Shown piece after piece: positions 28,775-30,315 of a stretch of 64,000 nt of DNA. The notes below the pieces were generated by a model. The model was given only the letters and a program-made list of their open reading frames with translations. It ran no database searches and was not told the DNA's origin. This stretch comes from Euzebya sp. (GTDB taxonomy: Bacteria > Actinomycetota > Nitriliruptoria > Euzebyales > Euzebyaceae): NCBI RefSeq assembly GCF_964222135.1, contig NZ_CAXQBR010000029.1:1-64000 (forward strand). The letters are read 5' to 3'. The position numbers were made by a program, and so were the translations under genes. Positions within the stretch are counted from its first letter, which is position 1. The number at the start of each line of letters is the position of its first letter.

Positions 28775-28819
28775 GGTGTGTCGGGACACCTGTCGGGTTG
28801 ACGGGCGTCCCGACACACC
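28775..28819 (-). terminator. 13-bp perfect inverted repeat, probable terminator
   Basis: GGTGTGTCGGGAC (28775-28787) and GTCCCGACACACC (28807-28819) pair around 19 bases. It lies 12 bp downstream of the stop of the minus-strand gene 28831-29124 and upstream of the CWB2 gene, so it should insulate the two. No T-run is visible. Confidence 0.6.
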
Positions 28820-28830
28820 GCGGGTTGGGG

Positions 28831-29124
28831 TCATGCACCCTCGGGCGCGGACCGGGTGGCCCGTTCCAGCTGGGTGTCGGGGTCGACCAGTCGGAGGCCC
28901 AGCGCGATGAACGCGAGGCCGATCCGCTGGGGCAGGCGGGCACCGGCGATGCGGGCCTGCAGCCGCTCGCGCGGCGGGATCGAGAACCAGAAGCCCGCGC
29001 GGGTGACCGCAGGCCTCGGTATCAGGGGGTGGGAGCGGGTGGCGGCAGCCTCACGCGCGAGGTCGATGCCTCGCAGGCGAGCCTGCTCACCGATCATCAT
29101 CGGGTGCACAGCAGTGCCTTTCAT
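28831..29124 (-). CDS. Small hypothetical protein
   Basis: A 97-residue protein, MKGTAVHPMMIGEQARLRGI onward, with one hydrophobic stretch near the C terminus (IGLAFIALGLRLV). Codon third positions are GC-rich as in real genes here. I do not recognise a family. ATG 29124 or ATG 29100 may be the start. It lies downstream of a 33-codon ORF with a strong promoter, and a palindrome (29132-29150) sits directly before its start, so expression may depend on translation of that leader. Confidence 0.55.
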   Translation of the reverse strand: MKGTAVHPMMIGEQARLRGIDLAREAAATRSHPLIPRPAVTRAGFWFSIPPRERLQARIAGARLPQRIGLAFIALGLRLVDPDTQLERATRSAPEGA

Positions 29125-29131
29125 CGCACAC

Positions 29132-29150
29132 GTGACCCCACCGGGGTCAC
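29132..29150 (-). promoter_or_regulatory. 19-bp palindrome before the small hypothetical gene
   Basis: GTGACCCC (29132-29139), ACC, GGGGTCAC (29143-29150). It ends eight bases before the ATG at 29124 on the minus strand. It could be an operator, or a stem in the leader mRNA that affects access to the start codon. Confidence 0.45.
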
Positions 29151-29268
29151 TCGGTCAGGGGGGACCTGGAGCCGACGGCAGCAGGCCGGGGACGGCCCGC
29201 ACCATCGAGCGGGGAGCGGTCAGCGCCTCAGCGGACGCCGACGGTCGTCAGGGGGAGGGAGGTGGCGG

Positions 29269-29370
29269 CTACGCCGCGGAGCGGAGGTACGCAGCCGAGC
29301 CGCACATCACGACGCAGAGATGATCCGCAGCTCGGACGGCCGGGATCGCGGTGGTGTTCGTCGTAGGCAT
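29269..29370 (-). CDS. 33-residue Cys-containing ORF, putative leader peptide or peptide precursor
   Basis: The ORF encodes MPTTNTTAIPAVRAADH, then LCVVMCGSAAYLRSAA. AAGGAGGT lies about seven bases before the ATG, and a perfect TTGACA is 17 bases from a CAGTGT -10 upstream. These are among the strongest start signals in the window although the product is tiny. It ends 145 bp before the small hypothetical gene on the same strand. Possible roles are a cysteine-sensing leader peptide that controls the downstream gene, a peptide precursor, or a small protein. No maturation enzyme is next to it. It was found from its start signals; the peptide resembles no family I know. Confidence 0.5.
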   Translation of the reverse strand: MPTTNTTAIPAVRAADHLCVVMCGSAAYLRSAA

Positions 29371-29425
29371 CAGTTCGTACCTCCTTCCCTGATCGAGTGA
29401 TGGCCCGGTTGAGGCCAGGCCGGTG

Positions 29426-29454
29426 ACACTGCACGACCCCGATGGCGATGTCAA
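29426..29454 (-). promoter_or_regulatory. Promoter of the 33-codon ORF
   Basis: On the minus strand TTGACA (29454-29449), a 17-base spacer and CAGTGT (29431-29426). This leaves a leader of roughly 50 bases before the AAGGAGGT ribosome-binding site. Confidence 0.55.
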
Positions 29455-29553
29455 GCACGTCTCCCCAGGTCGACCCTGGCCGGGCGGACGACCCTCGCGG
29501 TGTGGCACCGTGGGGGTCTCCAGGACGGCGGGGATCGGGCGGGAGGAGCGCGA

Positions 29554-30315
29554 GTGGGCAGCGACGAGGAGCCGGAGATCGAGGCGCTGGCCCGACAGGT
29601 CGAGGGCCTGCAGGCGGACCTGGCCGACGCCACCCGCCAGCTCGAGCGGTTCGCGTACGTGGCCTCCCACGACCTGAAGGAGCCGCTGCGGGCGGTCACG
29701 GGCTTCGCCCGCCTGCTCGAGCAGCGGCACGCCGACAGCCTGGACGACTCCGGTCGTATGTACCTCGGCTACGTCCTCGACGGCGCCGCGCGGCTCGGGG
29801 CGATGATCGACGCCCTGCTCGACTACAGCCGTGCGGCCCGCCACGAGGTCGAGCCGGGCCCCGTCGACCTCGAGGACCTCACCCGGCAGGTGGTCGCGCA
29901 GCTCGTCGACGGCGGCCGCGGCGTCGACGCGCACATCGAGCTCGGTGACCTGCCGGTCGTCACCACCGACGAGGTCCTCCTCCGCGCGGTCCTGCGCCAC
30001 CTGCTCGACAACGCGCTGCTGTACACCGCGGCCGGGGAGCCCGCGTCGGTGTCGGTGACGGCCAGCACCCCCACCGCGGGCGAGGGCCCGTGGACGATCG
30101 AGGTGCGCGACCGGGGCATCGGGATCGCCCCGGAGGACCAGGACCGCGCCTTCGACCTGTTCACGCGGCTGCAGTCCCGCGAGGACTACCCCGGCAACGG
30201 CATCGGCCTCGGCCTGGTCACCACCGCGGTGCAGCGCCTCGGCGGACGCGTCGAGCTCGAGTCCACCCCGGGTGAGGGCACCGTCGTCCGGGTGCACCTC
30301 CCGGCCACCCCCTGA
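29554..30315 (+). CDS. Sensor histidine kinase
   Basis: A 253-residue kinase core without any visible sensor domain or membrane segment. A short N-terminal coiled coil (ALARQVEGLQADLADATRQL) leads directly into the H box FAYVASHDLKEPLRAV with H39. The N box is HLLDNALLYTA, the G1 box DRGIGIAPED, the F-like region FDLFTRL and the G2 box NGIGLGLV. The H box resembles that of bacteriophytochrome-type kinases. No response regulator lies next to it, so it is an orphan that may act on a distant partner. GTG 29554 has GGAGGAG at good distance. Confidence 0.85.
   Translation: MGSDEEPEIEALARQVEGLQADLADATRQLERFAYVASHDLKEPLRAVTGFARLLEQRHADSLDDSGRMYLGYVLDGAARLGAMIDALLDYSRAARHEVEPGPVDLEDLTRQVVAQLVDGGRGVDAHIELGDLPVVTTDEVLLRAVLRHLLDNALLYTAAGEPASVSVTASTPTAGEGPWTIEVRDRGIGIAPEDQDRAFDLFTRLQSREDYPGNGIGLGLVTTAVQRLGGRVELESTPGEGTVVRVHLPATP

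Follow-up and report, generated by a model that had tools for sequence, protein, structure and literature searches.

The window analyzed here is the whole 64,000-nucleotide stretch of Euzebya sp. contig NZ_CAXQBR010000029.1. On its minus strand, to which all elements of the unit described below belong, a short ORF precedes a gene for a small basic protein. A promoter-like element, TTGACA-N17-CAGTGT (29426..29454), lies before the ORF and was assigned from the sequence and by comparison with related loci. The perfect TTGACA (29454-29449) and the 17-bp spacing reported in the initial annotation are present, but the accompanying -10 hexamer CAGTGT (29431-29426) is poor, matching TATAAT at two of six positions, which explains why an automatic scan reported no sigma-70 site. 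Three congeners carry the similar TTGACA-N17/18-CAnnnT, and eight further loci have TTGnnn-N16/17-TAnnnT before the short ORF. The Shine-Dalgarno (SD) sequence AAGGAGGT (29379..29386) is found 8 nt 5' of ATG 29370, and a near-perfect SD occupies the same place in 16 of the 17 complete homologous loci. The upstream ORF itself (29269..29370) comprises 33 codons and a stop, and its translation from ATG 29370 to the end at 29269 reads MPTTNTTAIPAVRAADHLCVVMCGSAAYLRSAA. Both the ribosome-binding site and the 33-residue product with a CVVMC segment were thereby confirmed; CVVMC corresponds to codons 19-23, with Cys codons at 19 and 23. A histidine kinase gene with HisKA and HATPase domains and without a recognized sensor domain (29512-30315) is divergent from the short ORF.

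The downstream gene had been described as encoding 97 residues. A 97-codon ORF does exist (28831-29124) when read from ATG 29124, but an AAAGG SD (29121-29117) falls within its first codons, on the 3' side of that ATG, and the alignment places the starts of three congeneric homologues at GTG 29109. Therefore, the small gene probably starts at GTG 29109 and not at ATG 29124, and encodes 92 residues (28831..29109). Members of this family, termed MHP, have 58-92 residues, 13-22% Arg and a pI of about 12. No member matched Pfam or NCBIfam above the cut-offs, DUF1127 from Pfam matched none of 13 members, and the small protein had no match above the cut-off in the PDB. An AlphaFold model of low confidence (mean pLDDT 71, pTM 0.28) consists of two helices and a loose linker. 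Between one pair of congeners, the changes at the three codon positions of the small gene are 12/4/25, with 17 synonymous and 13 non-synonymous codons; by this measure, the small protein is under purifying selection between congeners. A perfect 13-bp inverted repeat, GGTGTGTCGGGAC / GTCCCGACACACC, with a 19-nt loop (28775-28819) is situated between the small gene and a gene for a CWB2-domain protein, and may serve as a terminator or as an operator.

Distribution of the unit and conservation of the peptide

The genus sample consisted of the window genome and three congeners. Homologues of the small gene are present in all three congeners, with E-values of 5e-8 to 2e-7, and are preceded by AAAGGAG(G), an ORF of 26, 36 or 38 codons and a spacer of 144-167 nt. 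Profile searches identified further, more distant MHP homologues across the class, in a second family with per-genome E-values down to 1e-29 and in a few others. When genome contigs were searched with profiles, the genus alignment found nothing and the second-family alignment found one locus, which is cut off by the contig end. We defined an upstream ORF strictly by a 6-nt match to AAGGAGGTGA, a distance of 3-12 nt, a start codon and a length of 18-60 codons. Such an ORF is present in 16 of 19 homologous loci, some of which are closely related and hence not fully independent, and in 16 of the 17 with complete upstream sequence; its length is 24-44 codons. Of the three misses, two lie at contig ends; the remaining one may have an ORF that starts with TTG. 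Dinucleotide-shuffled upstream regions (300 sets) yielded a mean of 0.29 of 19 loci and a maximum of 2, and the reverse strand of the 19 upstream regions contained three such ORFs. The unit adjoins dnaE/hisD in the window genus; in the other family it adjoins a gene resembling gltB (both assignments by eye from the translations). Neighbors in the window encode the CWB2 protein, the histidine kinase and a DNA glycosylase. Despite these changes of surroundings, the ORF and the small gene remain together. The existence of a leader ORF 5' of the small gene is thus well supported by comparative evidence.

In one genome (G045), the small gene occurs twice, and the second copy (L168, G045:C211:4700-6100) has no upstream ORF, which indicates that the small gene can exist without it. 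Upstream of a small gene that begins with MHRDF, locus L159 of a more distant genome (G103) contains, at about 1200-1340, TTGACA, AAAGGAG and a possible ORF with TTG as its start codon; this is perhaps an ORF and small gene unit outside the class. Weaker MHP relatives in other actinobacteria (E about 1e-4 to 1e-10, for compositionally biased sequences) lack the upstream ORF. Distant relatives at L122, L148, L154 and L156 are divergent from genes encoding CGNR zinc-finger proteins, of which three have ABATE as well, and MHP-like small genes at L147 and L160 are divergent from DJ-1/PfpI-domain genes resembling GlxA-type regulators. Such divergent arrangements suggest that the MHP small gene is a regulated gene.

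The peptide sequence behaves differently from the ORF. When searched in 100 relatives, the 33-residue peptide retrieved only itself, the other matches being at chance level. In the same congener pair as above, the reading frame of the ORF is kept with one 6-nt gap, the changes at the three codon positions are 7/6/7, and there are 4 synonymous versus 10 non-synonymous codons; ORF pairs in the other family are similarly without codon-position bias. A C-terminal motif is common within a genus (RPGCxAAA; RPxVxARxGV). Across genera, similarity between the peptides is slight or undetectable, and they can hardly be aligned beyond chance. Presence of the ORF is therefore conserved and the peptide sequence is not, which suggests that the peptide itself matters little and argues against the peptide precursor that the initial annotation had offered as its alternative. 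A related possibility is that the short ORF stands alone as a highly expressed gene, ended by a terminator of its own, for a small functional peptide (a signal, a partner of the basic protein or a modified peptide), and that the small gene is transcribed by read-through or from a separate promoter. The strong promoter and SD, the motifs common within genera and the terminator-like hairpin directly past the ORF in one family (see below) would fit such a gene. However, it would leave the divergence between genera, the substitutions without the codon bias seen in the neighboring small gene and the constant linkage to that gene amid varying neighbors to be accounted for, and genes for peptide processing, modification or export were not recognized nearby in the window. 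We consider this possibility unlikely.

Elements between the ORF and the small gene

A C-rich, G-poor tract (29243..29268) directly follows the ORF stop. Ranked by C minus G among local 50-mers, the 50 nt past the stop belong to the top 2.5% in the window and to the top 0.06-7% in the congeners, with values of 9 to 21 across the genus. We regard the tract as a candidate Rho-loading (rut-like) region. The genome has a Rho gene (E 3e-112, best match under a strict curated cut-off).

The longest perfect complement to the SD region of the ORF, GGAGGTACG (29384-29376), is the 9-nt CGTACCTCC (29283..29291; shuffle P=0.007), and pairing between the two could mask initiation of the ORF. The duplex of the window SD region has a z of -3.8 against a control-gene mean of -0.27. 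Self-pairing between SD and ORF was stronger than expected: the mean z is -1.41 for the 16 ORFs and -2.57 for the window genus, compared with -0.27 for 19 control genes, single-locus z-scores being mostly weak. Within the window genus, the SD region can pair either with the last ORF codons or with the stretch past the stop. In two congeners, CAGCCCG can pair with CGGGCTG, which is not significant alone.

The palindrome noted previously 3' of the short ORF was verified as a 19-nt hairpin, GTGACCCC-GGT-GGGGTCAC, with 8 perfect base pairs (29132..29150). It is located 10 nt 5' of the small-gene SD, and two congeners have hairpins of different sequence at exactly the same distance (read by eye). 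The spacers of two congeners can also form alternative hairpins, CTCGTC/GACGAG versus CGAGCCG/CGGCTCG, which were not found in the window. Rfam covariance models gave no match at or above the gathering score.

In the second family, a GC hairpin follows the ORF. Its usual form is GAGCCGGCGG-loop-CCGCCGGCTC, followed by a T-containing TyTTCG or TCTCGTCG. The hairpin begins 18-32 nt past the ORF stop in 11 loci and is absent from the leaders of the window genus. In its alignment, 90% of the cells are paired and formal covariation is slight. With 0-5 occurrences of its core per genome, the hairpin is not a generic terminator of the second-family genomes. Several of these hairpins have poor T-tracts (TCTCGTCG), and we treat them as candidate terminators. 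The ORF end can pair with the 5' arm of the hairpin better than in shuffled leaders, with a combined z of -4.8; the strongest locus is in G034 (-3.6) and single loci are mostly weak.

These elements bear on the possibility that the ORF and leader act on translation or mRNA stability of the small gene only, for example through the hairpin before its SD, without premature termination. In three of the four genus members, a hairpin stands exactly 10 nt 5' of the SD, its sequence unrelated from one member to the next, and the automatic scan found no intrinsic terminator in the window leader, both of which are compatible with such a mechanism. On the other hand, the related family has a terminator-like hairpin immediately past the ORF, and the predicted access to the small-gene SD in the window leader hardly changes with and without the ORF (0.67 vs 0.69), without a clear switch. 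This explanation appears even less likely than an independent peptide gene.

Proposed control of the small gene

The loci share a recurrent ORF with a strong SD, a hairpin or C-rich tract and the small gene, and constraint is on the protein and not on the peptide. We think it somewhat probable, on these comparative grounds, that the 33-codon ORF acts as a regulatory uORF and that its translation controls transcription of the gene for the small basic two-helix protein; we infer co-transcription, premature termination and the involvement of Rho, as well as the signal and the way in which the gene responds to it. The ORF and the small gene would be read from one promoter before the ORF, and translation of the ORF would determine if RNA polymerase continues as far as the small gene. 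With normal ribosome initiation and movement, transcription would stop between the ORF and the gene. The related family would use its terminator-like GC hairpin for this; in the window genus, Rho would probably act at the C-rich tract. Slow translation or scarce ribosomes would cause the leader to refold, by pairing of the SD region with the last ORF codons or of the ORF end with the terminator arm; transcription would then proceed into the small gene. The small gene may, however, have its own promoter, which would count against control by the ORF.

Because the peptide sequence seems to matter little, the signal is probably the general translation status and not cysteine. The initial annotation had read the locus as a cysteine-responsive leader peptide and had looked to conservation in relatives to decide. 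The leader ORF is conserved in relatives; its cysteines are conserved only in part. The window ORF has two separated Cys codons and the three congeners have one each, whereas Cys is absent from 3 of the 16 class ORFs, one ORF has three scattered Cys and none has a Cys run. In total, 16 of 501 residues are Cys versus 12.9 expected in stop-free nucleotide shuffles (P=0.22), and 13 ORFs have at least one Cys versus 9.1 in shuffles (P=0.044). The lack of enrichment in the total, together with the three ORFs without Cys, removes the main support for cysteine sensing, and the downstream protein, matching no known family, provided no link to cysteine metabolism. Cysteine sensing as a rule of the family was consequently rejected, since Cys is as frequent as base composition predicts. 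For the window itself, ribosome stalling at Cys codons 19 and 23 under cysteine limitation with induction of the downstream gene would draw on the position of these codons near the ORF end and on the one Cys codon toward the C terminus in each congener, but we find it highly improbable given the absence of Cys runs, which precede cys genes in known actinobacterial cysteine leaders (PMC1262725).

Comparison with known leaders

The closest experimental model for the proposed translation-dependent control is the DUF1127 leader of Sinorhizobium meliloti (RNA Biol 2025, PMC12218461), by analogy of its parts. This 279-nt leader has a 29-residue uORF close to the start site, an RBS that can pair with codons in the first third of the uORF, C-rich elements and no intrinsic terminator, with Rho as the probable factor, and was found by experiment to sense translation inhibition (PMC12218461). 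It resembles the window leader in the short uORF, RBS-uORF pairing, C-rich elements and small downstream gene, and, like the window genus, lacks an intrinsic terminator. It differs in belonging to another phylum and in its downstream family, as MHP proteins do not match DUF1127 in Pfam; moreover, the window pairing involves the last ORF codons instead of the first third. In actinobacterial cysteine leader peptides, runs of Cys codons are placed before cys genes (Seliverstov 2005, PMC1262725), and polycysteine sORFs of mycobacteria are attributed to Canestrari 2020 in PMC9094748. Our leaders share with the actinobacterial cysteine leaders a short ORF with Cys codons near its end and the missing terminator in some species, but they have no Cys runs, lack Cys in several relatives, precede no cys gene and have a strong SD in place of leaderless initiation. 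The related family, with its leader ORF, terminator-like hairpin and possible alternative pairing, is also reminiscent of the trp and ilv leader-peptide attenuators. The whiB7-type leader, in which a leader ORF precedes a terminator, offers another comparison for this family. Unlike in these systems, there is no run of a regulatory amino acid here, and the downstream gene is neither biosynthetic nor whiB7.

On a broader reading, the unit would be a translation sensor found throughout a class of deep-branching actinobacteria: a freely varying uORF would gate a new family of small, strongly basic two-helix proteins, an intrinsic terminator in one family and Rho at a C-rich tract in the other would have replaced each other between lineages, and the small protein would act as a stress protein when ribosomes are short or stalled. 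We put this forward as a tentative possibility. The element joins a conserved leader ORF that lacks annotation to a small-protein family not described before, in an actinobacterial class that has received little study. Should attenuation prove true, it would offer a natural comparison of one control circuit built with either an intrinsic terminator or Rho. It would also parallel the DUF1127 leader in an unrelated phylum, which would suggest that small basic proteins have repeatedly come under the control of translation-sensing uORFs.
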